Source: Mesoterricola silvestris
GTDB lineage: Bacteria; Acidobacteriota; Holophagae; Holophagales; Holophagaceae
Length of the DNA: 64,000 nt
Assembly (NCBI RefSeq): GCF_030295405.1
Contig: NZ_AP027080.1
Location: forward strand, 2,170,001-2,234,000
Direction of reading: 5' to 3'
The notes under the pieces were generated by a model. It was not told the DNA's origin and ran no database searches. It saw only the letters and a list, made by a program, of their open reading frames with translations. This document shows positions 5,778-37,498 of the stretch, piece after piece. Both the position numbers and the translations under genes were made by a program. Position 1 is the stretch's first letter, and every line of letters starts with the position of its first letter.

Positions 5778-6827
5778 TCACAGGGCATCCAGCGGACTGG
5801 CCACGCCCCTCCCGCCCCGGTTGAGGACATGGGTGTAGATCATGGTGGTTTCCACATCCTTGTGTCCGAGCAGCTCTTGAATCGTGCGGATGTCATAGCC
5901 GCCCTGCAACAGGTGGGTGGCAAAGCTATGGCGGAGGACATGGGGCGTGACAGGCTTGGGGAGCCCCGCCGCAATGGCCGCCTTCCTGATTGACCGCTGG
6001 ATGGTTTCCGGCAGCACATGGTGCCTGCGTTCCAGGCCGGACCGCGGATCCACGGAGCAGGTCCGGGCCGGGAACACCCACTGCCATCCCCAGGATTTTG
6101 CCGCGGATGGGAATTTGACGGCCAGCGCATCGGGCAGATAAACAGCCCCGAATCCCTTTTCCAGGTCGCTCGAATGCAGATTCCGCACAAGGGTCAGATG
6201 TTGTCGCATCGGCTCCAGGAGGGCCCCGGGCAGCATGGTGATCCGGTCCTTGGCGCCCTTGCCATTGCGTACGATCACCTCCCTCCGCTCGAAATCCAGA
6301 TCCTTCACCCGGAGGCGGAGGCCCTCCAGGAGGCGCATCCCCGTTCCGTAAAGCAGCCTGCAGAAGAGAGCGGGGACCCCCGTCATGGGTTCCAGGATCC
6401 TGCGCACCTCACCCGGCGTCAGGACCACCGGCAAGCGACAGGCCGGCTTGGCCTGGACGATTCCTTCCAGCCAGGGCAGGTCCATGGCCAGCACCGCCTT
6501 GTAAAGGAACAGGAGGGCGGCCTTCGCCTGGTTCTGGGTGGCGGAGGCCACCTTACGCTCCAAAGCGAGGTGGCTCAGGAAGGCTTTCACCTCCGCCGCT
6601 CCCATGTTCGCGGGATGGCGCTTCCCGTGATGCAGAATGAACCGCCGGATCCAATCCACATACGTATCCTCCGTGCGGATGCTGTAGTGCCGGACCCGGA
6701 TTTCCTCCCGAACCCGGTCCAGCAGCCTGCGGGGCCCGGCCGGGCCCGGCCGATCGGTCTCATCCGATGCCAGGCCCTGCATCCCGGTGCCGGGGCTGGG
6801 TTCGGACGGGAAGGGCAGGGGGGGCAT
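5778..6827 (-). CDS. intI: Integron integrase (tyrosine recombinase)
   Basis: Recombines attI with folded single-stranded attC sites to insert or excise cassettes. The catalytic residues are all present: Arg165 ([14 protein letters not shown]), Lys near 190, His296 and Arg299 ([12 protein letters not shown]), His322 ([10 protein letters not shown]) and Tyr331. Their spacing equals that of IntI1 (146, 277, 280, 303, 312) with a constant offset of 19. The extra helix specific to integron integrases is seen at ~237-253 ([17 protein letters not shown]). The 19-residue offset comes from a Pro-rich N-terminus. A GAGG ribosome site precedes the ATG. The frame is intact, so the integrase is probably active. 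Confidence 0.96.
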
Positions 6828-6857
6828 GGTAGACCTCGATTCGTTAAATTTCCGCCA

Positions 6858-6885
6858 AACTTAGGGCTCCAATCAAACCTGTCAA
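6858..6885 (-). promoter_or_regulatory. Likely intI promoter
   Basis: On the minus strand a perfect -35 TTGACA (6880-6885) is followed after 16 bases by TAAGTT (6858-6863) as a weak -10. The ATG of intI is 30 bases further. In the second integron head the TTGACA is kept but the -10 has changed to TGCGTT. I see no clear LexA box overlapping it. Confidence 0.5.
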
Positions 6886-7057
6886 GGGCGGCAAACCTGC
6901 CTTGCCGCGAAGGTCCCGAACCTTCGACGGTTCGCCTGAATTCCTTCCCCGGGACCCATTGGCCGCCTCCGCGCCTGTCGCCTAATCAGGATCCACCCCG
7001 GAATAGGCGGCATCCCCGCGGTCGCCCAATCCCGGGACACCATCCGTCCAGAACCTT

Positions 7058-7086
7058 TTGCATGTGCATCCAAGCAGTTGCAGAAT
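7058..7086 (+). promoter_or_regulatory. Candidate cassette promoter Pc
   Basis: TTGCAT (7058-7063) and CAGAAT (7081-7086) are separated by 17 bases and point into the cassette array. Both hexamers match the consensus only partly (3 of 6 and 4 of 6). The same pair with the same spacing is kept in the second head at 17.3 kb, which is the main reason for listing it. Confidence 0.3.
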
Positions 7087-7136
7087 GAAGAAAACAGCCC
7101 TCCCGAAGCGACGCGCCCAAGCCCACCCAATGCGTT

Positions 7137-7232
7137 AATACCGACTCACCCCAGGCGGTTCGGGCCAATAATTTCCCCGGTCTTTACACGCCAGCGTTCG
7201 ATTCCCCGTCCGACGCCCAATTATGGTTAGGC
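7137..7232 (+). other. attI1 recombination site
   Basis: The site where new cassettes enter. The core GTTAGGC is at 7226-7232, with cleavage expected between G and T. The 84 bases at 7137-7220 are identical to 17382-17465 in the second head, while sequence farther upstream has diverged. This marks the probable functional extent of attI. It starts about 310 bases from the intI start codon, with no gene between. Confidence 0.8.
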
Positions 7233-7270
7233 ATCACCCACTACCTATATCTCAGCGCTGGGAGTCTTCG

Positions 7271-7783: not shown

Positions 7784-7846
7784 TTCGCAATTTGCACAAT
7801 CTTGATCCCACCGCGCCGTCCCAACGAGGGATTATTCACGCGCCGG

Positions 7847-7972
7847 TCCTAACCCAGCGTTCGAGGTCGGACCCCAACCTGCACTTCTCCCCTTGGTGGT
7901 ATCGTCGTTCCAACCTCCTTTCTCCTCCACTCGCGCCGCCAGGTTGGGGCCGACTCAACTTCGGCGTTAGGC
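7847..7972 (+). repeat. attC1 (type A)
   Basis: R'' TCCTAAC at 7847 and R' GTTAGGC at 7966-7972. The inner arms pair as GTT(C)GAG(G)TCGG(A)CCCCAACCTG against CAGGTTGGGGCCGACTCAAC, leaving three bulged bases. A second GTTAGGC follows at 7998-8004, exactly 32 bases on. Confidence 0.9.
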
Positions 7973-8071
7973 ATCTCCCAGCACAAGCCCAGTCAGCGTT
8001 AGGCATCTCCCAGCGCAACGATTAAGCTCAGGGAATCTCCAAGTTCGTTCTCCAGATAGGTCGCGAATGCC

Positions 8072-8560
8072 ATGACTTCAACCCCTCTATCCGTCATTTC
8101 CGTCATCCTCCATTGCACTTGGCTTTGCGCAGTGCAGGCAACGAACCCACTGCCCAGTCCCCAGCCAGAAGATGCTTTCTTTCAACTGGTTAAGTCGACT
8201 CAACCATCTCAGCGCAAATTTGTCCCAGAAAACGCTCCCCATTGGGATATCAAAAAGTTGTCTTCCTGGGTTTCTCCCAATGGCCTGGTTTTAGTCGAGC
8301 CTGGCAGCAAGAGGGGTAGGCATTTCACACATCAGGAAATTTCCAATGCACTTGCCTCTCGGAAAGGGCCCGTCTTCCTGGTATTCGCCCACATGTCCTT
8401 CCTCCTTTCACGCCGCCTCCCGCAGTACTCTAGGCTATGGCTCGAAGAGCGTCGCTCTGCTCGCGTCGGCTGCATCTCAACCTTCTACGAAGTGTCCTTC
8501 TCGCAGGTCAACAAGTTGCCAGTCGTTGTAAAAATCGAAGACATCAATCCGGGCGAATAG
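8072..8560 (+). CDS. Cassette 2 gene: exported hypothetical protein
   Basis: A 162-residue protein with a hydrophobic N-terminal segment (VISVILHCTWLCAVQA) that looks like a signal peptide cleaved after AVQA, so it probably acts in the periplasm. The mature part has an aromatic-charged pattern (KFVPENAPHWDIKKL, VFLVFAHMSFLLSRRLPQY) and ends in a strand-like KLPVVVKIEDINPGE. I do not recognise the family. The gene fills the cassette between attC1 and attC2, and the stop is 99 bases before attC2. Confidence 0.65.
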   Translation: MTSTPLSVISVILHCTWLCAVQATNPLPSPQPEDAFFQLVKSTQPSQRKFVPENAPHWDIKKLSSWVSPNGLVLVEPGSKRGRHFTHQEISNALASRKGPVFLVFAHMSFLLSRRLPQYSRLWLEERRSARVGCISTFYEVSFSQVNKLPVVVKIEDINPGE

Positions 8561-8659
8561 TGCTTAACTACGCACACCATCGTTACCCCCTCAATTGTTC
8601 CACCCAGTGGCGACACCCAATCGCGCCGTGTCTCCTATCTCATGACCAAACGTCCATCT

Positions 8660-8782
8660 GTCTAACCATCGCTTCGACGCGGACCCCAAAGTGCCTTCAT
8701 CCCACCAAGGTCCCTCGAACTCAATCAGCCTCCTCCGCCAGCCGCGCCGCCACTTTGGGGCCGGTCAAGCCGTGCGTTAGGA
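8660..8782 (+). repeat. attC2 (type B)
   Basis: R'' GTCTAAC at 8660 and R' GTTAGGA at 8776-8782. Inner arms of the type B form, ending CCCCAAAGTG / CACTTTGGGG, with the same three-bulge layout as type A. The last base of R' is A instead of the usual C or T. Confidence 0.85.
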
Positions 8783-8808
8783 ACCTCGTCACGCAGTTCT
8801 GGAGAGTT

Positions 8809-9138
8809 ATGGCCTTCAACGAAGAATTTGCCAAACAAATTATCGGTCATACGGTCGTTGTAGGGTTCAATCATGCAACGTCGGACGGTGACTTGATTCG
8901 CAAGTCCCAAGACTTTGGCACGATCACCTCGGTCTCTGCTGAAGATGGAATTGAAATCACGAGGCCTGATGGGTCTTCCTTTACCGTTCCCCCGGATTTC
9001 CGTTCAATGAAGGTGGCCGATCCTGGCATATACACACTTCGCTCCAATCAGGCATCGATCGAGAACCCCTCCTACACGATGATATGGACAATCTACGGAG
9101 CCGATTCCGACGCACCCACCTGGACTCCGATCAAATAG
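8809..9138 (+). CDS. Cassette 3 gene: hypothetical protein, 109 aa
   Basis: A soluble, strand-rich protein starting MAFNEEFAKQIIGHTVVVGF. The segment DGIEITRPDGSSFTVPPDF looks like a small beta-barrel domain, as seen in several cassette proteins, but I cannot name the family. The ATG at 8809 has a good ribosome site (GGAGA, 5 bases). It lies between attC2 and attC3, starting 26 bases after the attC2 core. An in-frame upstream extension runs through attC2 and is not real coding. Confidence 0.75.
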   Translation: MAFNEEFAKQIIGHTVVVGFNHATSDGDLIRKSQDFGTITSVSAEDGIEITRPDGSSFTVPPDFRSMKVADPGIYTLRSNQASIENPSYTMIWTIYGADSDAPTWTPIK

Positions 9139-9188
9139 GGAATTTGCGCAAAATGCGCCGTCCCAACAAGGTGATATTCACGCGCCGG

Positions 9189-9314
9189 TCCTAACCCAGC
9201 GTTCGAGGTCGGACCCCAACCTGCACTTCTCCCCTTGGTGGTATCGTCATTCCAACCTCCCTTCTCCTCCACTCGCGCCGCCAGGTTGGGGCCGACTCAA
9301 CTTCTGCGTTAGGC
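9189..9314 (+). repeat. attC3 (type A)
   Basis: R'' TCCTAAC at 9189 and R' GTTAGGC at 9308-9314, with the inner arms identical to attC1. A second, mutated core GTAAGGA lies at 9340-9346, again 32 bases downstream. Confidence 0.9.
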
Positions 9315-9383
9315 TTCACCAAGCCCCCGATTAGTCAGCGTAAGGAATCACCAACCACCCAACAACAAAGGATGAAGCATCGC

Positions 9384-9731
9384 ATGGGCCGAGATATTTA
9401 TGTTCAAGACCTGCCAGATAACATCCGTAATCTTAGCGAAATCCCAGATGATTTTGTTCCCCGCCCCATAGCCAGCAGATCAACGGTCATCGAGGCGATT
9501 CGGAAGGCCTTCCCGTCGGCTGACCTCACTGACCCTTCGTGGGTTAAGCTGGTCGAACCCAGTATTTTTTACATAGAGGCGAACCTTGGTAGCGTTGAAT
9601 CCCTTGATTCCTTTGTTTTCCATGTGAATGGAGGCAAAGAGGCCGATCAGCTGATTTCGCGGATCTTACTGAGTTTGGGCCTCCGAGCCGTCGATACTTT
9701 CAGCGACACTGGGCTGTTCCAATTTGTCTGA
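9384..9731 (+). CDS. Cassette 4 gene: hypothetical protein, 115 aa
   Basis: The protein begins MGRDIYVQDLPDNIRNLSEIP and continues with a helix-strand pattern (STVIEAIRKAFPSADL, FYIEANLGSVESLDSFVFHV, ADQLISRILLSLGLRAVD). The opening resembles a widespread family of small unknown proteins starting MGRDI, which is why I prefer the ATG at 9384 to the one at 9372, four codons upstream. It is soluble with no signal peptide. The gene fills cassette 4; its stop is 115 bases before attC4. Confidence 0.75.
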   Translation: MGRDIYVQDLPDNIRNLSEIPDDFVPRPIASRSTVIEAIRKAFPSADLTDPSWVKLVEPSIFYIEANLGSVESLDSFVFHVNGGKEADQLISRILLSLGLRAVDTFSDTGLFQFV

Positions 9732-9846
9732 CGGCTCATCGTTCAATTGGTCCTGCGGCTCAGGTCGATTGCTCAGGCATGGGGCCTTCGAAGGTCTGTG
9801 CATGGCCCGAACACGCCGTCCCAACGAGGTACGATTCACGCGCCGG

Positions 9847-9972
9847 TCCTAACCCAGCGTTCGAGGTCGGACCCCAACCTGCACTTCTCCCCTTGGTGGT
9901 ATCGTCATTCCAACCTCCCTTCTACTCCACCCGCGCCGCCAGGTTGGGGCCGACTCAACTTCGGCGTTAGGC
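9847..9972 (+). repeat. attC4 (type A)
   Basis: R'' TCCTAAC at 9847 and R' GTTAGGC at 9966-9972, nearly identical to attC1 and attC3 over the whole site and for about 35 bases upstream of R''. No second core at +32. Confidence 0.9.
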
Positions 9973-9994
9973 ATTCCTAGGCCCCCTCGTCCAA

Positions 9995-10381
9995 ATGATT
10001 GACCTCACTCCACTCCTCCATATCCATGGCGTGCAATTCAGCCCAAAAGAGGCCGCAAGGCTTTCTGGCCTGAGCTTCCAACACTGTGTTGAACCCGGCG
10101 AAATTCGTTCAACCGGTCGCTACAAGGGCAAGCCCTCACCATATGGCTCGGCAACCCTTACTTGCCCAGGCAAGGTCACAGATGATTCAAGGCTTATGTC
10201 TCTTCTAGCCATAGCCTCTCCGCATCTGGAGGCGCTCCGCAGCTGCGGCGCAGAGGAGTTCGACCTTTCCATTGATGTCGTATGGTCGAGGCAATGCAAC
10301 CTCGAGTTCTCGCCAGCTGAGCTCCTAGCAATTGCACAACTCCACATCCCACTCACCATTAGCTGCTGGCAAAAGAGCTGA
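9995..10381 (+). CDS. Cassette 5 gene: DUF4279-like protein
   Basis: The 128 residues contain FSPKEAARLSGLSFQHC, a central two-strand part, and the closing pattern LEFSPAELLAIAQLHIPLTI, which resembles DUF4279 proteins often found as lone genes or beside immunity genes. The function is unknown. The start at 9995 is 23 bases after the attC4 core, and the short leader leaves little room for its own promoter, so expression may depend on read-through. About 200 bases without a gene separate the stop from attC5. Confidence 0.7.
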   Translation: MIDLTPLLHIHGVQFSPKEAARLSGLSFQHCVEPGEIRSTGRYKGKPSPYGSATLTCPGKVTDDSRLMSLLAIASPHLEALRSCGAEEFDLSIDVVWSRQCNLEFSPAELLAIAQLHIPLTISCWQKS

Positions 10382-10586
10382 TCTGAAGGCGCCACGGGGG
10401 CCTCGCACGAGGCAAAGCCAAAACGCCGATCATCATAATCATTGAAAACGAACCACCTTTGTGCCCTCTCGCCCTTGCCGCGCTGAAGGGTGATACCCTT
10501 TCCCCATCGTTCCCCTCGCAGTCGTTCCACCCAGCGGAATCGGCCCGTCGCGCCGCGTCTCGGGTCTCATCACCAAACGTTTGTCT

Positions 10587-10709
10587 GCCTAACCATCGCT
10601 TCGACCCGGACCCCAAAGTGCCTTCATCCCGCCAAGGTCTCTCAAACTCCATCATCTTTCTCCGCCAACCGCGCCGCCACTTTGGGGCCGTTCAAGCCGG
10701 GCGTTAGGC
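10587..10709 (+). repeat. attC5 (type B)
   Basis: R'' GCCTAAC at 10587 and R' GTTAGGC at 10703-10709, both perfect. Inner arms end CCCCAAAGTG / CACTTTGGGG. A weak AGTAGGC lies 45 bases after the core. Confidence 0.9.
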
Positions 10710-10760
10710 ATCCCAAGACACCATCATCAAAGGCCGTCCAAACATCAGTAGGCATCTCAC

Positions 10761-11240
10761 ATGCTCACCATCCTTAATCCCAACGTCCTCGTCGACCAAC
10801 TGCGTTCGGGGCGCGTGCCAACCGTTCCGATAGTCATTCTAATGGCCTTGAATATCTCGTTCCAAAACCTGGCTGGGCATCCGGGCTTCCTTGGGGCTTT
10901 GGCATCACCCGCAGCGCTACCTTTTGTGCTCCTTCAATTAGGTATGTCCCTAGCGTCCCTTCTAATTGCCTTCCGCTCGAACGGAGGCGAGAAAGGCCAC
11001 GACTTCTTCACAAGGTTCTTCTCACTTACAGCAGTCCTCTACTTCTGGGTCTACATAGCTGGATATTTTGCATACGTCCTTTTGTCGTGGTTCGTAGTTG
11101 GCGCACTTGGTCAACCCGGCCGAGATCTTTATCGCTCTTTTGGGCCCGCACAACTCGTTTTCGGCGCAGTGACTTCCCTTGTATACCTACTCTCCCTCCA
11201 ATACTTCTTCTCAAAAGTCGCGTCCAAGGCCGCTCCTTAA
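10761..11240 (+). CDS. Cassette 6 gene: membrane protein, 159 aa
   Basis: A small integral membrane protein. Four hydrophobic segments are visible: near residues 21-45 (VPIVILMALNISFQ), 50-72 (PFVLLQLGMSLASLLIAF), 90-115 (VLYFWVYIAGYFAYVLLSW) and 132-150 (LVFGAVTSLVYLLSLQYF), with the short loops typical of unknown small membrane proteins. No catalytic motif is visible. It lies between attC5 and attC6. Confidence 0.75.
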   Translation: MLTILNPNVLVDQLRSGRVPTVPIVILMALNISFQNLAGHPGFLGALASPAALPFVLLQLGMSLASLLIAFRSNGGEKGHDFFTRFFSLTAVLYFWVYIAGYFAYVLLSWFVVGALGQPGRDLYRSFGPAQLVFGAVTSLVYLLSLQYFFSKVASKAAP

Positions 11241-11307
11241 TCCTGGCGCCACGTGCGCGGCGCCGGTTCCACCTCTCAATTCCAACGAGGTAATATTCAC
11301 GCGCCGG

Positions 11308-11434
11308 TCCTAACCCAGCGTTCGAGGTTGGACCCCAACCTTACACTTCTCCCCTTGGTGGTATCGTCATTCCAACCTCCCTTCTCCTCCACTCGCGCCG
11401 CCAGGTTGGGGCCGACTCAACTTCGGCGTTAGGC
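11308..11434 (+). repeat. attC6 (type A)
   Basis: R'' TCCTAAC at 11308 and R' GTTAGGC at 11428-11434; one extra base in the central spacer compared with attC1. A second core GTTAGGG is at 11460-11466, 32 bases on, at the entrance of the first cassette that lacks a gene. Confidence 0.9.
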
Positions 11435-11824
11435 ATCCCCAAGCGCAAGCCCAGTCAGCGTTAGGGCAGGGGGGCGCTGAACCCGACGGCCCCGCATTGC
11501 GCCGCGCCATGCTGCTGCGCGCCCGAAGGTCACGGTAGGCGGCCTTACCCGCGCCGGCCTCAGTGGGCGAAAAGCCCAGAGCTACATCACCAGGGCAAGC
11601 CGCAGCTCGATCGGCAATCAGCGATGTCAACCTCCGGGCGCTTCCACTGAGCGCCTATCCCACCGCGCCGTCCCAACGAGGTAATATTCACGCGCCGGTC
11701 CTAACCCAGCGTTCGAGGTCGGACCCCAACCTGCTCTTCTCCCCTTGGTGGTATCGTCATTCCAACCTCCCTTCTCCTCCACTCGCGCCGCCAGGTTGGG
11801 GCCGACTCAACTTCGGCGTAAGGC
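11435..11824 (+). other. Cassette 7: no convincing gene, copy 1 of a duplicated cassette
   Basis: About 390 bases holding no convincing gene. The interior (11460-11670) is closely similar to 16131-16345 in cassette 14, with most positions identical and few or no length changes. Frames on both strands can be read through both copies, but changes between copies fall in all codon positions and neither frame has a ribosome site. A structured RNA, a promoter-bearing cassette or a decayed gene are all possible. The second copy argues against random sequence. Confidence 0.7.
11699..11824 (+). repeat. attC7 (type A) with altered core
   Basis: R'' TCCTAAC at 11699, inner arms intact, but R' is GTAAGGC (11818-11824) instead of GTTAGGC. 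The change hits the second base of the cleavage step, so recombination here may be reduced. Confidence 0.88.
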
Positions 11825-11889
11825 ATCACATAGGACCCTTGGAACAAGCGTATGGAACCACTTATCACTTTCGACCCCGTCTTCCCGCA

Positions 11890-12321
11890 ATGAAAACGCA
11901 TAATCTGTTATTGATCCCGCTGGTTTCCCTTTCGGCGCAAGCCCAAAGTTCGCCATCCTTTATGGGCTGGAAAATGAAATGGGAATTCGTGGAGACTTGG
12001 AAGGGGTTGTCCAATCAACCAGTAATGGTGGCATATGAGGTTCGACTCCTATTCGTCGATGGCGAACCTCGAGCCGAGATCGATATCGATGGGCACATGG
12101 TGTTATGTAGAGTGCTTGCCTCCGTGCTAGGCACTGAGAAGGGGCTAAAATTCTTCTTCCTTCGAAACCGAGAAGAACATGTCCTGCCAATTTTCAAACC
12201 CGGAGACCTCCTATTTGAAATCCGCAAAGAACGGGGCCGTATTCTCACTCATTGGGCCAGTTTGCAACCTACCTTTGATGAGAATTGCAAACCAGGTTCT
12301 TACTTCAAGCCAGCAAAATAA
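11890..12321 (+). CDS. Cassette 8 gene: exported protein, possibly DUF5991-like
   Basis: A 143-residue protein with an N-terminal signal peptide (NLLLIPLVSLSAQAQS, cleavage likely after AQA), so probably periplasmic. The mature part is strand-rich (VMVAYEVRLLFVDGEPRAEI, DIDGHMVLCRVLASV) and ends with LTHWASLQPTF. The arrangement resembles DUF5991 proteins, a family without known function; I hold that only loosely. The stop is 8 bases before the attC8 core. Longer upstream reading runs through attC7 and is not coding. Confidence 0.72.
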   Translation: MKTHNLLLIPLVSLSAQAQSSPSFMGWKMKWEFVETWKGLSNQPVMVAYEVRLLFVDGEPRAEIDIDGHMVLCRVLASVLGTEKGLKFFFLRNREEHVLPIFKPGDLLFEIRKERGRILTHWASLQPTFDENCKPGSYFKPAK

Positions 12322-12329
12322 CCGCGTCT

Positions 12330-12453
12330 GCCTAACCATCGCTTCGACCCGGACCCCAGCCTTCCTCGCTCCCACCAAGGCTCCGTATTCTTCCATTCCC
12401 ATTCTCCGCCGACCGCGCCGTCAGGCTGGAGCCGGTCAAGCCGAGCATTAGAC
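12330..12453 (+). repeat. attC8 (type B) with altered core
   Basis: R'' GCCTAAC at 12330; the right end reads ATTAGAC (12447-12453), so the first base of R' is A. The inner arms are CCCCAGCC / GGCTGGAGCC. A GCTAGGC follows 33 bases later at 12480. Confidence 0.8.
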
Positions 12454-12491
12454 TTCACCCACCACCCATCAAACCGGCGGCTAGGCACAAC

Positions 12492-12737
12492 ATGGACCTC
12501 CACGTCATTTACACAAAAGCAGAGATGCTTCTATCCAAGAAGTCCTACACTTCATGGCGTGATATCCAAGATGAATACGAAGACTACATGGCGTCCTTTG
12601 GCCCATGGTCAATTGAACAAGTGCTGGGGCTTTTCGAAAAAGACTATCCAGACTTGGACCCGGTTGGTTTGGTTCAAGTCGAAATTCTTCGCAACTCACC
12701 TTCCGAAACCATTCGGCTCACTTTCAAGAGTCGTTGA
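12492..12737 (+). CDS. Cassette 9 gene: small protein, 81 aa
   Basis: A soluble acidic protein, MDLHVIYTKAEMLLSKKSY at the start, with two helices (WRDIQDEYEDYMASF, WSIEQVLGLFEKDYP) and a C-terminal strand (SETIRLTFKSR). I do not recognise it. It starts 39 bases after the attC8 core and is followed by 178 bases without a clear gene up to attC9. The base composition is that of the other cassettes, poorer in GC than the host. Confidence 0.65.
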   Translation: MDLHVIYTKAEMLLSKKSYTSWRDIQDEYEDYMASFGPWSIEQVLGLFEKDYPDLDPVGLVQVEILRNSPSETIRLTFKSR

Positions 12738-12915
12738 TGAGGCTCCTAAACCGGCTCCGGCTTCACTCGGGTCAGCAACATGAGTTCCATTCCAATCAAG
12801 TCCAGTCTTTACCTAACGGTGATTGCCTGGGGCCCAGTTTTCCCGCTCAGGTTAATTACCAGCCGCTTTGCCCCATCGCGCTGCAAAACCGGGCGGCATC
12901 ATCGGAGGTCGAGCT

Positions 12916-13038
12916 GCCTAGCCATCGCTTCGACCCGGACCCCAATGTGCCTTCATCCCACCGTGGTTCCTTGAACTCAATTACCCTTCTCCGCCAACCG
13001 CGCCGCCACTTTGGTGCCGGTCAAGCCGTGCGTTAGGC
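12916..13038 (+). repeat. attC9 (type B)
   Basis: R'' GCCTAGC at 12916 (one change) and R' GTTAGGC at 13032-13038. The inner arms have two mismatches (CCCCAATGTG against CACTTTGGTG). Confidence 0.85.
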
Positions 13039-13231
13039 ATCTCCCAGCCCGCATCAAACAAGCGTCTGGCGCCGCGCGCGAAACGAGGCTACTGAGCAGG
13101 TCATCATCACCCAGCCAACCCGCCCGATGCCAGGCATGCCCGTCCATACCGCACCAAAGCATGGTAGGCTTGCGCCATCAATCCAATCCTTTTTGGCACT
13201 TACCAACTCGCTTCGAACGAGGCCTTCCAGC

Positions 13232-13804
13232 ATGAAATGCCCCCTTCAGCAAGAACGGCTAGAACTTGAAACTCTTCCGAATGGAATCCAGATCTCGGTT
13301 CCAGCAAGAAGGAGCTGGTTTGTCCTTTTGTTCCTCACTATTTGGCTCTGCGGTTGGGTCATGGGCGAGCGCTCTGCGCTAATCGAGGTGTTTGGCCATC
13401 TTGCCAAGCCTGGCCCTCCGCCCGCATTCATGGCAATTTGGCTCACCGGATGGACGGTAGGCGGTGCATTCGCCTTACTCACTTTGGTTTGGCAGGTTGC
13501 CGGCCGAGAAATAATCGGAATTGAAAGCGGATATCTCTTCCACAAAATCCAGATCCTGGGCATCACCAGAATGCGGGAATACCAAGGCGATCAAATCAAG
13601 AGGCTTAGGGCGGTTGATTATTCTCCCGGGTTTAATCGACAGGCTTCTTGGGTGCCTCCTCTTGTTGGCCAAGGCGTTGGCCCCATTGCCTTTGACTACG
13701 GTTCAAAGTCCGTTCGAATCGGCCAATCCCTGGATGAAGCAGAAGCCCCGCGCCTTATCGAACTACTTGTTTCTCGGCTACCTCAATCCGTACATTATTC
13801 CTAA
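13232..13804 (+). CDS. Cassette 10 gene: membrane protein, 190 aa
   Basis: A protein with two transmembrane helices (SWFVLLFLTIWLCGWVMG near 30-47 and FMAIWLTGWTVGGAFALLTL near 70-90) and a ~100-residue cytoplasmic tail rich in strands (EIIGIESGYLFHKIQILGIT, GPIAFDYGSKSVRIGQSL). The two-helix plus strand-rich tail layout resembles small PH-like membrane proteins, but I cannot be sure. The ATG at 13232 has an upstream GAGG. A ~190-base leader between attC9 and the gene shares sequence with cassettes 11 and 12. Confidence 0.75.
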   Translation: MKCPLQQERLELETLPNGIQISVPARRSWFVLLFLTIWLCGWVMGERSALIEVFGHLAKPGPPPAFMAIWLTGWTVGGAFALLTLVWQVAGREIIGIESGYLFHKIQILGITRMREYQGDQIKRLRAVDYSPGFNRQASWVPPLVGQGVGPIAFDYGSKSVRIGQSLDEAEAPRLIELLVSRLPQSVHYS

Positions 13805-13872
13805 CTATTCGACTCCCCAGCGGCAATACCTCATCGCGCCGCGTCTCGGGTCCCATCGCCATATGTCCGTCT

Positions 13873-13998
13873 GCCTAACTATCCCTTCGACCCGGACCCC
13901 AGCCCTGTATTGCTCCAACCAGGTCTTCCTCATCTCCCATCGCACTTCTCCGCCGACGGCGCCGCCAGGGCTGGGGCCGGTCAAGCCGGGCGTTAGGC
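13873..13998 (+). repeat. attC10 (type B)
   Basis: R'' GCCTAAC at 13873 and R' GTTAGGC at 13992-13998; inner arms CCCCAGCCCTG / CAGGGCTGGGG pair perfectly after the bulged A. Confidence 0.88.
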
Positions 13999-14297
13999 AT
14001 CTCCCATCCCGCTTCGAACCAGCGTCTGGCGGAGCCCCGCTATCAGGGCACCGAAGCCAATGAGCGTCACCCGGCGGTAGGGCCGGCTGGCCAGGGCGCC
14101 CACTCTCTAGGCGTCGACAGATGCCAGGTTGGGCGGCGCGCACGATTCGAGGCTAATGATGCCGGTTTTCATCGCCCATGGATGCGCCCACTGGCTTGCA
14201 CACCCCCCTTAAGGCGCCGAAGTTGAGGAAATCAGGAACTTTCGAGGCCAGAAGCTCACTTATCTCTTGATTCCATATAGCCTCGCTAGGTGGGTTT
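13999..14297 (+). other. Leader of cassette 11, no clear gene
   Basis: 299 bases without a supported gene. The first ~110 bases contain AGCGTCTGGCG and CACCGAAGCCAATGAGCGTC, which recur with changes at 14802-14910 and partly at 13039-13110. The rest has no visible feature. Confidence 0.5.
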
Positions 14298-14642
14298 ATG
14301 CTCCCTTCCATGCCGCCCTTCCTCATTGCCTCCCTGCTTGTCCAGGCTCCTCTGCCTACAGGCCAGGCTACGAAACGCGCCAGAAAACAGGTGCTCATCG
14401 TCCCGCTGTTGCTCCAGATCAACGATCCTCAGGTCGTCCACGCCGAAGCCTACCTTCGGAAGGTTCTCCCAACGTGGAGGATCGCCAATCCCACCTTCGC
14501 ATGCAAATCCGAAATCCCTCGTTCGGCCCTTCAGCTACGATGCCTGGTCGATTCCGCTAACGGTACCGAAGAATGGCAATTCACGATTCAGGTCCTTTCA
14601 GATGGGCAGTTAAAACTGCGAGAGGCAAAGGTCCTAAGCTAA
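14298..14642 (+). CDS. Cassette 11 gene: exported hypothetical protein, 114 aa
   Basis: The N-terminus MLPSMPPFLIASLLVQAPLP looks like a signal peptide, followed by a basic segment and a mature part with AEAYLRKVLPTWRIANPTF and a strand pair at the end (EWQFTIQVLSDGQLKLREA). The pattern fits a small periplasmic protein, with no recognisable family. A weak AGGTGG ribosome site precedes the ATG, and other frames also stay open here, so the start is less sure than for most cassette genes. Confidence 0.55.
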   Translation: MLPSMPPFLIASLLVQAPLPTGQATKRARKQVLIVPLLLQINDPQVVHAEAYLRKVLPTWRIANPTFACKSEIPRSALQLRCLVDSANGTEEWQFTIQVLSDGQLKLREAKVLS

Positions 14643-14675
14643 CGCCTCGGGACTTTTCGGCGCAGGGGGGTGGTT

Positions 14676-14801
14676 GCCTAACCTCGCGTTCGACTCCGGA
14701 CCCCAGCCATTAGTGGCTCCTGCTTTGATTTCGGCATCTTCAAACTTCCTTCTCTCTCTTACGCGCCGCCAGGCTGGGGCCGGCCAACTTTGGCGTTAGG
14801 C
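14676..14801 (+). repeat. attC11 (third arm type)
   Basis: R'' GCCTAAC at 14676 and R' GTTAGGC at 14795-14801. The arms CCGGACCCCAGCC / GGCTGGGGCCGG differ from types A and B. The right part resembles the right part of attC14. Confidence 0.88.
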
Positions 14802-14971
14802 ATCTCCCTGCGCTAAGCGACGGGGCGCCTGGCGCCGCTCACGTATTCTGGTCACCGAAGCCACTGAACATCACCCAGCGATCAGGCACACTGGCAAGCC
14901 CCTGGTTCTCTATGCGCTGGGGAGTGGTAGGCTTGCACCCTCAACCCAAACCAGGTCAGCAAGGGACCCCA

Positions 14972-15529
14972 ATGTATTGCCCCTCATGCAAATCCCCAAA
15001 TCCGGTTTACAGAAAATTTTGTCTCAACTGCCATCTTGCCTTGAACGGAAGTGGCAATTACGAACCCGGGTTTTCACCCGAATCAGCATCGGGTCCGCTG
15101 TCGCCCAAGGAGGCAGAGAAGGCCAAGGCAAGGAAGAAATGGATGTTGGATAAAATTGAAACAAGGGAAGATGCCCTGAAATTTGCCCATGATGCTTCGA
15201 TTGCTTTCTTTGTGGTGGCCGCTCTCCAGGCTGTCATGTCAATTCTGATCGGCTTTTCCATATTGATTGATTCGTCAATCTATGCGCTTAGTGCCTTCTT
15301 CGTGCTTCGTTTCCATAGCCGCGTTGCAGCGATTACTCTACTGCTTCTCGCCTCCCTAGCTACAATCTCAACCGTGTTCAACATCGTCAAAGGCAACGTG
15401 GCTGCCTGTGCCAGCATCGTCATTTCCCTAATCACCTTGGTCATTGCCACACGTGCAGTTGAAGCCAGTTTCAAACTCCATGGCCGCTTCGCACTTGCGA
15501 AGTCCTGCGATCCGAGGTCTCCAGCCTGA
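14972..15529 (+). CDS. Cassette 12 gene: zinc-ribbon membrane protein
   Basis: The N-terminus holds a four-cysteine zinc-ribbon, CPSCKSPNPVYRKFCLNC (CxxC...CxxC). It is followed by a charged linker (EAEKAKARKKWMLDKIE) and about four transmembrane helices (ASIAFFVVAALQAVMSILIG, YALSAFFVLRF, AAITLLLLASLATISTVF, CASIVISLITLVIATRA). This zinc-ribbon plus helices layout is common in small bacterial membrane proteins of unknown role. The ATG at 14972 follows AAGGGA with good spacing; a start 20 codons upstream lacks one. Confidence 0.8.
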   Translation: MYCPSCKSPNPVYRKFCLNCHLALNGSGNYEPGFSPESASGPLSPKEAEKAKARKKWMLDKIETREDALKFAHDASIAFFVVAALQAVMSILIGFSILIDSSIYALSAFFVLRFHSRVAAITLLLLASLATISTVFNIVKGNVAACASIVISLITLVIATRAVEASFKLHGRFALAKSCDPRSPA

Positions 15530-15585
15530 CCCGTGGCATTTCCCCATTGCGCCGCGTCTCGGGTCCCATCACCAAACGCCCGTCT

Positions 15586-15651
15586 GCCTAACGGTTGTGC
15601 GCAAATCTCATCAACCGACCGGCCTACAACTGGGTCTTAGGGGCTATAGGC
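15586..15651 (+). repeat. attC12, short and degenerate
   Basis: R'' GCCTAAC at 15586 is perfect. The right end is unclear: CTTAGGG at 15636-15642 pairs with the left end, while TATAGGC at 15645-15651 is followed by the usual CATCCC. The short arms GGTTGT / ACAAC pair. At about 60 bases it is half the length of the other sites. Confidence 0.5.
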
Positions 15652-15667
15652 ATCCCTGGAGGCGGCC

Positions 15668-16057
15668 ATGACTCACGCTAGAGCGCTCCTGCTCCTCCTT
15701 TTCACCGCCTGCGCCACCCAGCCAGCCTGGGTACCCCAACCGGTGCCCCCTTGGCGGGTGCTGGACGCCGGTGCCATTCAACCCTCGGCGAGCGCACAAT
15801 CCATGACGGTAGAGGTGGATGCCTGGCGTGAGGACGGCCTGCCACTGCGCTTATTCCTGGACGACCGCGCTGTGGCTGACTTGCTGCCTGGGGAACGACT
15901 GAACCTTTTCGTTACTCCGGGCAGGCACACCCTTCGGATCAAGAGGCAGGGCTTGATCGACCGTTCCGAGGCTGCCACCGAGTTTGCGGCTACGACGGGT
16001 GCAGCCTTCCGCATCTTCAGGCCCACTCCAGGGACCCTCGCAATCCAACCCGCCTGA
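15668..16057 (+). CDS. Cassette 13 gene: lipoprotein
   Basis: A 129-residue protein with a lipoprotein signal (RALLLLLFTACATQP, lipobox FTAC with Cys near 15). It is therefore probably anchored in the inner or outer membrane. The mature part has a strand-rich domain (DGLPLRLFLDDRAVADLLPG, LNLFVTPGRHTLRIKRQG) resembling PEGA-type or related small beta domains. The ribosome site GGAGG is strong. GC content is close to the host, unlike most other cassettes, and only the right half of an attC follows, so its entry may be different or recent. Confidence 0.8.
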   Translation: MTHARALLLLLFTACATQPAWVPQPVPPWRVLDAGAIQPSASAQSMTVEVDAWREDGLPLRLFLDDRAVADLLPGERLNLFVTPGRHTLRIKRQGLIDRSEAATEFAATTGAAFRIFRPTPGTLAIQPA

Positions 16058-16069
16058 ATCCACCTGGGT

Positions 16070-16105
16070 CTCCCAAGCTTGGTCCGGTCAACTCGCGCGT
16101 TAGGC
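16070..16105 (+). repeat. attC13, right half only
   Basis: The right arm CTTGGTCCGGTCAACTCGCG and core GTTAGGC (16099-16105) are present, but I find no matching R'' to the left. A mutated second core GTGAGGG lies at 16131-16137, again 32 bases on. Confidence 0.6.
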
Positions 16106-16495
16106 TTCACCAAGCCCCAGCCCAGTCAGCGTGAGGGCAGGGGGCGGGCTGAACCCGAGGGCCCCGCATTGCGCCGCGTCACGCTGCGGATCGCCTGAAG
16201 GCCACGGTAGGCGGGTTTATCCGCACCGGCCTCAGTGGGAGAAAAGCCCAGAGCTACATCACCAGGGCAAGCCGCAGCTCGATCTGCAATCAGCGACGTC
16301 GACCTCCGGGCGCTTCAACTGCGCGCCTATCCCACCGCGCCGTCCCGACGAGGCACCCTTCACGCGCCGGTCCTAACCCAGCGTTCGAGGTCGGACCCCA
16401 ACCTGCACTTCTCCCCTTGGTGGTATCGTCATTTCAACCTCCCTTCTCCTCCACTGGCGCCGCCAGGCCAGGGCCGGTCAACTTTGGCGTTAGGC
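16106..16495 (+). other. Cassette 14: no convincing gene, copy 2
   Basis: The second copy of the cassette seen at 11435-11824, with the same order: +32 second core, GC-rich first part, the conserved block AGAGCTACATCACCAGGGCA, then attC. The copies differ at scattered positions. No convincing gene is visible. It sits five cassettes away from copy 1 inside the same array. Confidence 0.7.
16371..16495 (+). repeat. attC14, mosaic of two types
   Basis: The left half is pure type A (TCCTAAC at 16371, then CCCCAACCTG), but the right half reads GCCAGGCCAGGGCCGG and CAACTTTGGC before GTTAGGC (16489-16495), like attC11. The two inner arms therefore pair poorly. Confidence 0.8.
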
Positions 16496-16500
16496 ATCTC

Positions 16501-16782: not shown

Positions 16783-16833
16783 GGCAAAATATTTCGCGCC
16801 GTGTCATCTGGCCACATCATCAATCGCACGTCT

Positions 16834-16878
16834 CCCTAACATGCCTGCCCAGCCATTCCGCGCCGAGGGGTGTTAGGC
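16834..16878 (+). repeat. attC15, very short
   Basis: CCCTAAC at 16834 and GTTAGGC at 16872-16878, only 45 bases apart in total. The ends pair as CCTAACA / TGTTAGG with CC / GG beyond. It is less than half the usual length in this array. Confidence 0.55.
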
Positions 16879-16932
16879 TTGCACCATCAACCCAATCCAA
16901 GTTTGGAATTACCGATCACCCTGGGTTCAGTG

Positions 16933-17074
16933 GAGTGCCGGACCGGATTTCCTCCCGAACCCGGTCCCGCAGCCTGTGGGGCCTGGCCGGGCCCGGCCGA
17001 TCGGTCTCGTCCGATTCCAGGCCCTGCATCCCGGTGCGGGGGCTGGGTTCGGACGGAAAGGGCAGGGGGGACAT
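16933..17074 (-). pseudogene. Truncated intI copy (N-terminal fragment)
   Basis: Translation on the minus strand from the ATG at 17074 gives [18 protein letters not shown] and continues to DRVREEIR, matching residues 2-44 of IntI with a few changes. A missing C then shifts the frame and homology ends near 16933. All catalytic parts are absent. It is part of a second integron head together with attI2. Confidence 0.9.
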
Positions 17075-17381
17075 GGCTGACTTCGATTCGCGAAATTTCC
17101 GCAAAACGCAGGGCTCCCATCAAGCCTGTCAAGGTCGGCAAACCCGGTTTGCCGCGAAGGCCCTGAACCTTCGATGGTTCGCCAGCATCCCTCTCCCGGG
17201 ACCCTATGGCCCCCTCCGCGCCTGTCGCCCAATCAGGATCCAGTCCGGAAGAGGCGGCATTCCGAGGTCCCCCAATGCTAGGACCACATTCATCCGGAAC
17301 CTTTTGCATGTGCGTCCAAGCCATTGCAGAATGAAGAAAACAGCCCTCCCGAAGCGATGCGCCCAAGCCCACACAAGGATC

Positions 17382-17474
17382 AATACCGACTCACCCCAGG
17401 CGGTTCGGGCCAATAATTTCCCCGGTCTTTACACGCCAGCGTTCGATTCCCCGTCCGACGCCCAAGGGTTAGGC
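17382..17474 (+). other. attI2, second integration site inside the array
   Basis: 84 bases (17382-17465) are identical to attI1, followed by the core GTTAGGC at 17468-17474. The sequence from here back to the intI fragment (16933) corresponds to the region between intI and attI1 with scattered changes. The complete identity next to the core contrasts with divergence farther away. Confidence 0.85.
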
Positions 17475-17521
17475 ATTGACCACCACCAATCGACAATGCT
17501 TTACCCGTCATAGGAGTCCGA

Positions 17522-17950
17522 ATGAAATTCACAACAGGGCTCTCAATTCTTTTCCTAACCGCGCTACCGCTCATGGCGGTAGAAGACACTGAGGCAAATC
17601 GACTCAAAGCCGCTGAAAGGTATCTTGCGGCAACACCTGTCTCGGAATTGATGAATGATCTGGTAGAGCAAATGGGCAAGAACCAACCTTCCGAAAAGCA
17701 AGCTTGGATTAAAACGGTTATGACAAATTGCCTGGACATGAAGGCCATTGAGACAATCATGAGGAAGTCAATGATTAAAACCTTCACCGCAGATGAGTTG
17801 AATGCTCTGGCTGACTTCTACGCATCTCCTTACGGGAAGTCCGCTATGAAAAAATTTGGCCTATATATGGCCGATGCAATGCCGGAAACTCAGCAGGAAA
17901 TCATGAAGGCAGTTGAGAAGTCAAAGGCGATGATCCCAGAGCCAAAATAG
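17522..17950 (+). CDS. Cassette 16 gene: DUF2059-like exported protein
   Basis: The first gene after attI2. It has a signal peptide (TGLSILFLTALPLMAVE, cleavage after LMA) and a helical mature part. The segments YLAATPVSELMNDLVEQMG, FTADELNALADFYASPYGKS and the closing QQEIMKAVEKSKA fit the DUF2059 family, small periplasmic helical proteins of unknown role found in many Gram-negative bacteria. A strong ribosome site (AGGAG, 7 bases) precedes the ATG. Base composition is poorer in GC than the host. Confidence 0.85.
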   Translation: MKFTTGLSILFLTALPLMAVEDTEANRLKAAERYLAATPVSELMNDLVEQMGKNQPSEKQAWIKTVMTNCLDMKAIETIMRKSMIKTFTADELNALADFYASPYGKSAMKKFGLYMADAMPETQQEIMKAVEKSKAMIPEPK

Positions 17951-17991
17951 CTCAGCCCATCCGGTCCGACGAGGTACTATTCACGCGTCGG

Positions 17992-18117
17992 TCCAAGCCC
18001 AGCCTTCGAGGTCGGACCCCAACCTGCGCTGCTCCCCTTGGTGGTATCGTCATTCCGACCCCCCTCCTCCTCCACTCGCGCCGCCAGGTTGGGGCCGACT
18101 CACCTTCGGCGTCATGC
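17992..18117 (+). repeat. attC16, decayed type A
   Basis: Inner arms and flanks clearly match type A, but both cores are damaged: R'' reads TCCAAGC (17992) and R' reads GTCATGC (18111-18117). This site has probably lost function, so cassette 16 may be fixed. Confidence 0.8.
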
Positions 18118-18145
18118 GTCCCTCACATCCATCATGGAGGTACAG

Positions 18146-18604
18146 ATGAAACCAAGCTTGCTCTTATCAATACCGTTTTTGTCCGCCCTTCTCGGCTGCG
18201 GCATTATTGGCAATTACCAACGCATTAATTTGTACCCCGTGAATAGCACGGGCATGAATCAACCCTTGAATGGCACTATCTATAATCTATCTGGAAAGAT
18301 CAAACTTACATTAGCCAATGGTACCGAATATCAAGGTGAGTTGTTTAAGGTAGCGAGACCTCAAGATCCCAGTGACACTTTATATTCTGATAAGTTGGGA
18401 TTCCCAAAAAACTGGGATGCCGTTTATGGCGATCATTATTACTCAAAGAATGTTTTGGGTTCAGAGAGGTACTGGCGCTGCAACCTGACAACCACTTCGA
18501 CCGATTCCATATACCTGGAAATAATCCGACCCAACTTGAATTCAGACATCCGCCTCGGTGTAGCCGTGGACTCCAAGGGGCAAGCATACAAGGTCACGTT
18601 CTAA
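18146..18604 (+). CDS. Cassette 17 gene: lipoprotein, 152 aa
   Basis: A lipoprotein signal is clear: LLLSIPFLSALLGCGIIG with lipobox LLGC. The mature part is strand-rich (NGTIYNLSGKIKLTLANG, YQGELFKVARP, SIYLEIIRPNLNSDIRLGVA), suggesting a small beta-sandwich protein in the periplasm or outer membrane. The ribosome site GGAGG lies 7 bases before the ATG at 18146. Family unknown. It is the last cassette and lies between two decayed attC sites. Confidence 0.75.
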   Translation: MKPSLLLSIPFLSALLGCGIIGNYQRINLYPVNSTGMNQPLNGTIYNLSGKIKLTLANGTEYQGELFKVARPQDPSDTLYSDKLGFPKNWDAVYGDHYYSKNVLGSERYWRCNLTTTSTDSIYLEIIRPNLNSDIRLGVAVDSKGQAYKVTF

Positions 18605-18625
18605 AATCCGTAATTGATCGCCGAC

Positions 18626-18735
18626 GCCTGACCCCTGGCTCAACCCGGACCCCGCCGGCATTGTCCGCCGCTCTCTCTCGGCTTCACCCTTCCTCGACTT
18701 CGCTCAGCGCCTCGGCACAGGCGGGGTGGTTAGCC
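18626..18735 (+). repeat. attC17 candidate, strongly decayed
   Basis: GCCTGAC at 18626 and GTTAGCC at 18729-18735 with partly pairing arms (CCCGGACCCCGCC / GGCGGGGT). It would mark the right end of the array. Confidence 0.5.
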
Positions 18736-18853
18736 TCATCTCCACGCCCCGGTTTTGGCCATGCTTCGCCAGAACCTGGCGCCTGCGGTCTCCCGGCACC
18801 TGGGCTACTCCCGCAATACCCTCTACCGGAGGATGGAGAAGTTGGGGATATGA
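18734..18853 (+). pseudogene. Remnant of a Fis-type DNA-binding C-terminus
   Basis: The frame ends with QNLAPAVSRHLGYSRNTLYR, then RMEKLGI and a stop, the typical Fis/NtrC-family helix-turn-helix that closes sigma54-dependent regulators. No ATPase or receiver domain precedes it; upstream the frame meets a stop at the attC17 core. It looks like the stump left when the integron array, or a deletion, removed the rest of a regulator gene. Confidence 0.75.
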
Positions 18854-36401: not shown

Positions 36402-37498
36402 GTCCCCTCCCCGCGAGAACCCTGATTGGGTATCCAGATGCCGACTGCTAATCGGCAGAACCGGTTATGAACATTACAAATGGATTCGAATTTCCGGGAA
36501 CCGGGCTTCCGGGCCCCGCAGCGCGGGATGGCCCCGGGCGACCGGGCCCGTCCCCGAGTCCGAAATTCTTGATTTGAATAAACTTCACATTTTTAGGATT
36601 TCCCTACCCGTTAGGATGGAATCCGGATCCGGCACCTCCAGGGGCCTGGCTGGGTAATCGCACGTGTTCCAGATGTTCGCCCTGTTTCGTCATCGCCGGA
36701 CAAGCCGGCGATGACGGCTGCAGGTTGGACATTCGGGCGGTGACCCGTATTCCCTGCCGGTGGCCGCAGGTCCTTTCGTCCAAATTCCCGAGGAAGGGTG
36801 CGGCCCATGGGGTTCCGATCCCTTGCGCCGACCCACCGGTACCGTCGGCTTCCGGTCCTCGCTGCGCTGCGGGCCGGGTCCTCCGGTTGCCGTAGCTCGG
36901 TTTCGGAGTAGGGGGGGTGTCTGGAACGAGGGCCGCCCTTTCCATCGCCTGGGATGACCTGCGGGGAGTGAGGAAATCCGTCCCCAATCCCTGTTTTGTC
37001 ATTGCTGTATTGACATACTCGATTAAAGACCTGCCCTTACACCGGGAGGTCCATCCTGTCCCCATCTTCCATCCGAGCGTCCAGGGCGGAGCTGTCGCTG
37101 GGCTCCCGTCCCCCACGGCTCCAAGGCCGAGCTACGGCAACCGGAGGACCCGGCCCGCAGCGCAGCGAGGACCGGAAGCCGACGGTACCGGTGGGTCGGC
37201 GCAAAGGATCGGAACCTCATGGGCCGGGCCCTTTTCCGGGGGCCTGGACGAACCGGGCGCGGCCACCGGCAGGGAAGGCTTGTCAGCGTCGAAATGTCCA
37301 ACCTGCAGTCGCCATCGCCGGACAAACCGGCGATGACGGGATGGGGGGAGGGACGTTGGGGCCCTGCTACGCCCATTCGCTTCCCGCAAGGCTGGGCTCA
37401 GGCGGGTGGGGGATTACCTATTAAGATGATTCCTGGAACCCTTCTCCGGTGCTGTCGCGCGGGTCCCCCGGGGGGCCTTCGATATTCCAAGGATTGTC
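36402..37498. other. Long gene-free region with inverted repeat
   Basis: About 1.1 kb without a supported gene. Its main content is the inverted repeat listed separately. The first ~250 bases are mixed, with an AT-rich patch near 36570-36605 that could hold a promoter for the chemoreceptor. The last ~100 bases lead into the kinase gene. Confidence 0.6.
36694..37341. repeat. Long inverted repeat, ~215-base arms
   Basis: The left arm (36694-36910) and the reverse of the right arm (37118-37341) match at most positions; the stretch CGACCCACCGGTACCGTCGG and its flanks are the best conserved. Each outer end carries a small hairpin, CATCGCCGG / CCGGCGATG. About 210 bases without a gene lie between. 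It resembles a non-autonomous mobile element, but no transposase is present. Confidence 0.8.

Follow-up and report, generated by a model that had tools for sequence, protein, structure and literature searches.

Introduction

Some chromosomal integrons, for example in Xanthomonas, have an inactivated or truncated intI and retain their cassettes; CALINs also occur there, and these can reportedly be mobilised in trans (PMC12444791). IntI1 both excises and inserts unusual cassettes that end in delta-attI or in a complete attI1, and it can still cut delta-attI sites that retain just 11 bp to the left of the core (PMC12901181). The sites of tyrosine recombinases consist of two binding boxes and a spacer whose length falls within a narrow range; recombination of attC with attI at the L box would put attI downstream of a cassette (PMC4792948). 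Our literature search, which lay outside most subscription journals, found no published case of an intI fragment, the intergenic region and attI embedded together in a chromosomal array.

Here, we analyzed a window of 64,000 nucleotides from the chromosome of Mesoterricola silvestris (NZ_AP027080.1, positions 2,170,001 to 2,234,000), in which a second integron head had been predicted inside a cassette array. Positions below are those of the window unless the chromosome is named. The structure is real and unusual, and it is best explained as a relic with a broken intI, a damaged attI core and decayed cassettes.

Results

The complete integron and its genomic context

The intI gene (5778-6827, minus strand) encodes a complete integron integrase of 349 aa, which scored 459 bits with the NCBIfam model TIGR02249 (cut-off, 265) and matched Pfam PF00589 and PF13495. 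It was the only complete intI found in a search of the genome itself, and the closest integrases in named genomes belong to Holophagaceae. Head A, comprising the intI 5' end, the intergenic region and attI-A (6683-7232 in the three-head alignment), is part of a complete platform in which intI, attI and an attC array are all present; the attI-A core GTTAGGC begins at 7226 and the L box CCCAAT occupies 7216-7221. Array A (7846-16496, plus strand) was delineated using a covariance model derived from 16 attC sites, taken from the two arrays of this genome, as a hand-made scan for R''/R' pairing missed known attC sites and gave several false matches. The model identified 12 strong sites (7846-7973, 8659-8783, 9188-9315, 9846-9973, 10586-10710, 11307-11435, 11698-11825, 12329-12454, 12915-13039, 13872-13999, 14675-14802 and 16370-16496) and one weak site (15950-16106). 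In the distal part of the array, erosion is visible in an over-long composite cassette of 1304 bp with two ORFs (14796-16099); inside it are the left arm of a decayed attC, near 15586, and what may be a decayed junction, near 14926. Two attC sites of this family were also observed in isolation, far from any head, at chromosome positions 2403238-2403362 and 2000591-2000715 (89 and 74 bits, respectively).

On its left side, up to 5720, the chromosome is colinear with two genomes of the same genus, in which the integron does not follow. Colinearity resumes at 37490 in one same-genus genome, indicating that the integron lies within a variable region of about 32 kb. This region (5720-37490) is bounded by conserved genes and measures 6.6 kb in that relative. 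The embedded block had no counterpart in the same-genus genomes. A two-head layout, which had been proposed as something to look for in relatives, was not seen when 55 loci, most of which end after a few kb of array, were compared with themselves; most of the repeats returned were cassettes or resembled attC, and one was an intI fragment of 68 bp. That fragment is in a locus of an Azoarcus sp. MAG, where 1535-1602 and 639-706 are 68-bp copies of an intI 5' fragment with 94% identity; the copy lies about 0.9 kb from intI on the attI/array side and is possibly another head relic.

A second head related to two others in the genome

As had been predicted, a second head with a truncated intI lies inside the cassette array. 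Local alignment of 16931-17476, which includes head B (16931-17474), with 6683-7234, which includes head A, gave a close identity of 88% (BLAST E 2.6e-199), and the homology extends from attI through the intergenic region into intI, of which the first 44 codons are covered. The intI relic (16931-17074, minus strand), defined by translation and tblastn (84% over residues 1-45), consists of ATG and 43 further codons followed by a frameshift to a 52-aa ORF, and lacks the catalytic part; that is, head B has no complete intI with the tyrosine recombinase catalytic residues. The intergenic region and the left half of attI-B follow at 17075-17467, and the attI-B core GTTAGGC is located at 17468-17474 (plus strand). 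The block had been placed between cassettes 15 and 16; upon recounting, it is itself unit 15, between cassettes 14 and 16.

A genome search with the block revealed a third head, C, at 3.687 Mb on the other strand (chromosome 3686980-3687497; 84% identical to the block). It contains an attI with an undamaged core, the intergenic region and intI codons 1-119, and its intI is interrupted by TAG and TAA. B differs from A at about 11% of sites and from C at about 14%. Repeated sequence in arrays commonly causes misassembly, and the block could be such an error or a duplicated read artefact; however, at this divergence it cannot be reads of either head, and the genome is a single 4.99-Mb contig, which makes an artefact highly improbable. 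In the columns common to the three heads, private changes numbered 17 in A, 36 in B and 36 in C. The fewer changes in A indicate slower evolution, as expected of a functional head, and the equal loads of B and C indicate that B was not copied recently from A. On these counts, B is as old as the unlinked head C and no nearer to A than C is.

An identical tract and a damaged core spacer in attI-B

Heads A and B differ at 57 of 540 aligned columns, and 84 bp (7137-7220 and 17382-17465) are the same letter for letter, a run longer than a random distribution of these differences would give (permutation P 0.002). The tract had been described as adjoining the core; its identity is exact, but it ends 5 nt short of the A core, where TTATG (7221-7225) is replaced by GG in B (17466-17467), a net loss of 3 nt beside the crossover point. 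That is, GTTAGGC is preceded by CCCAATTATG in A and by CCCAAGG in B.

Selection or gene conversion had been suggested for this identity, which is real and modestly significant. It counts against regarding B simply as a fossil, as head C changed at 5 of 83 comparable sites while A and B remained the same, and it gives a hint that attI-B has been under selection or has been converted. We assessed gene conversion between A and B, which lie 10 kb apart in the same orientation, as the source of the identity in place of constraint, with B otherwise a relic. Besides the length of the run, B-specific changes are absent from the tract (permutation P 0.046) and C there behaves as elsewhere. However, changes specific to A also keep clear of the head's 3' end (longest run, 151; permutation P 0.043), as constraint predicts, and a conversion event would probably have carried over the 3-nt spacer too, unless this was lost later. 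Conversion is quite possible, if a little short of an even chance; it bears on the 84-bp identity only and is compatible with a fossil origin of the block. The tract may thus be taken as weak-to-moderate evidence for constraint or conversion, the two being inseparable on these data. Compared with relatives, attI outside the simple site was not conserved between species (best local score 31 versus 23 for shuffled sequence).

The 3 nt missing from B fall between the two attI core boxes, L and R. Measured alike, the L-R spacer is 4 nt in A and C and 1 nt in B, so that attI-B lacks the normal box spacing. The attI of relatives conforms to a simple site of [CT]CAAT or a close variant, N4/5 and GTTAGGC, and the spacer was 4-5 nt in 51 of the 54 relatives' loci measured, at least one of the three exceptions being an artefact of the motif definition. 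Since spacer length is confined to a narrow range in tyrosine recombinase sites, attI-B is probably impaired, and its sequence suggests that it is probably a poor or dead recombination substrate. However, a short spacer need not mean inactivity, as IntI1 cuts delta-attI sites with 11 bp left of the core.

Decayed cassettes behind attI-B

If attI-B were active in capture, intact young cassettes would be expected behind it. The first cassette after attI-B (17469-18111, plus strand) carries an ORF for a DUF2059 protein (17522-17950; Pfam PF09832, 40.8 bits). Its attC (17991-18118; core GTCATGC) is decayed in both R'' (CCAAGC) and R' (GTCATGC) and scored 92.9 bits with the attC model, compared with 117-142 bits for 11 of the 12 strong sites. 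The second and last is a cassette remnant (18112-18736, plus strand) with a 154-aa ORF (18140-18604) and an attC vestige (18638-18736) that matched the model partially at 11.5 bits. Neither of these two cassettes is a fresh capture directly after attI-B. Therefore, with the 3-nt spacer loss and the decayed first attC, the proposal that attI-B gives the array a second entry point is unsupported. A second promoter was likewise not confirmed, as a scan of heads A and B found no sigma-70 consensus.

These results bear on whether attI-B has been maintained in working order, giving the distal cassettes a second promoter and a second capture site on which the integrase encoded at 5.8 kb acts in trans; the 84-bp identity would then reflect selection. 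The significance of the identical run is consistent with such maintenance, as is the apparent recent cassette gain beside attI-C in the headless array of the same genome. However, no fresh cassette follows attI-B and both attC sites there are decayed, the 3-nt loss falls in the most conserved part of attI, promoter consensus is absent, and C, which is apparently used, did change within the tract. We therefore consider a working attI-B unlikely.

The left end and the origin of the block

GTTAGGC is present at 16872 and 17468 in the same orientation and flanks the block as claimed, but head homology begins at 16931, and the 52 bp after the left GTTAGGC (16879-16930, plus strand) are not head sequence. 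The left core belongs to a short, weak attC-like site (16833-16879, plus strand) with R'' CCTAAC at 16835 and R' GTTAGGC at 16872. This site spans 47 bp, versus about 126 bp for the family, and scored 13.2 bits on the minus strand and 8.3 bits on the plus strand with the attC model; its bottom strand folds at -9 kcal/mol (z -0.96), barely better than shuffles. The first 24 bp of 16879-16930 resemble another cassette leader (14933-14956), and 16860-16902 matches 14914-14956 at 84% (E 2.9e-6) across the core, which suggests a real, though degenerate, cassette junction. Because the 52 bp are leader-like, the left breakpoint would lie inside a cassette. The 52 bp may be a cassette start severed by fusion to intI, which fits a rearrangement and not a clean attI x attC event.

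The block could alternatively be a mobile attI-type cassette. IntI would recombine the attC at 16872 with attI-B at 17468 to release a 596-bp circle carrying attI, and reinsertion of this circle elsewhere would let a capture site, perhaps together with a promoter, travel along arrays. The cores at both sides, the 84 bp shared with attI-A and the IntI1-mobilised cassettes that end in delta-attI or attI1 (PMC12901181) are all consistent with such mobility. However, the block was not found again in the genome with this left end, and its left attC is both short and weak. Moreover, the core spacer of attI-B lacks 3 nt, and 36 private changes mark B as old; mobility is thus quite unlikely.

Two origins had been put forward, of which the joining of two related integrons is the better. 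Copying of the head by attI x attC recombination does not agree with a left end at which 52 bp separate head from core, nor with B being no closer to A than C is. Recombination of attC with attI at the L box was rejected, because such an event would not give rise to a second copy of the intI fragment and the intergenic region. No relative or strain carrying the pre-fusion state was found.

Signs of recent cassette gain in a headless array

Array C (chromosome 3677539-3686715) comprises 12 cassettes, with 12 attC sites of the same family as array A. With at least two attC sites and an intI relic in place of a neighbouring complete intI, it is a CALIN; together with attI-C and the relic, it extends over chromosome 3677539-3687716. 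Cassettes C1 and C3 beside attI-C are identical at 391 of 391 positions over exactly one cassette unit, and the identity stops at the shared core bases; the other copies of this cassette, in array A, are 93% identical. In all, this 390-bp cassette, which has no clear gene of its own, occurs in four copies in the two arrays (11429-11818 and 16100-16489 in the window, and C1 and C3) with 90-100% identity, and a 240-bp part of it also ends cassette C11.

Since intI-C has long been broken, the simplest reading is that capture or copying at C was recent and was performed by IntI from 5.8 kb. This pattern suggests, as we infer from it, that the complete IntI recently acted in trans on headless array C. 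The idea of a second entry point fits C better than B.

Discussion

We propose that B is probably a fossil platform of the same family that was fused into the distal array by a rearrangement removing most of intI-B. In this scenario, the lineage would once have carried three or more related heads, among them A, B and C. Most of intI-B would then have been lost in a rearrangement, in the simplest case a deletion or insertion, with one breakpoint 52 bp inside a cassette of the upstream array and a second in intI-B codon 44-45. As a result, array A would run straight into the attI of head B and two old cassettes, and the block may look like a cassette because both ends happen to carry GTTAGGC cores. 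attI-B would afterwards have lost 3 nt between its L and R boxes. The separate headless array C most likely depends in trans on the integrase encoded at 5.8 kb, the only complete one in the genome. The sequence relations, the truncation, the spacer loss and the exact duplicate of one cassette unit beside attI-C are observed directly; from these we infer the order of events, the loss of attI-B activity and the action in trans.

A broader possibility is that a single integrase serves several attI capture sites that lie apart on the chromosome, namely A, C and perhaps also the embedded B. In such a distributed integron, headless platforms would gain cassettes in trans and an attI in mid-array would be an extra insertion point; we regard this as possible but on the doubtful side. 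Array C is a more interesting lead than block B. The genome combines one integrase with three attI sites: A is intact with intI in cis, C is intact without intI, and B is core-damaged in mid-array. Such a set makes it possible to ask which elements of a non-clinical attI are important, and whether arrays without a head are kept alive in trans. In addition, the embedded relic documents fusion and head loss in chromosomal integrons; such relics are easily missed because many assemblies break in arrays.

The block is formally like delta-attI-type cassettes, as it is a cassette-like unit inside an array in which attI replaces attC at the downstream end. Unlike them, it carries some 540 bp of head sequence, part of which is an intI 5' fragment, and has no cassette gene of its own, it is chromosomal and not part of a resistance integron, and its attI core spacer is damaged. 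As in the Xanthomonas integrons with a broken intI, intI is truncated here and the cassettes were kept, whereas head B has kept its attI and is embedded in the array of another, complete integron that belongs to its own family. The sedentary chromosomal integrons of Holophagaceae (Geothrix and relatives) share the orientation of intI divergent from attI and the simple site [CT]CAAT-N4/5-GTTAGGC; the locus differs from them in its second head, none of which was seen in the relatives' array stretches examined, most of which break at contig ends.
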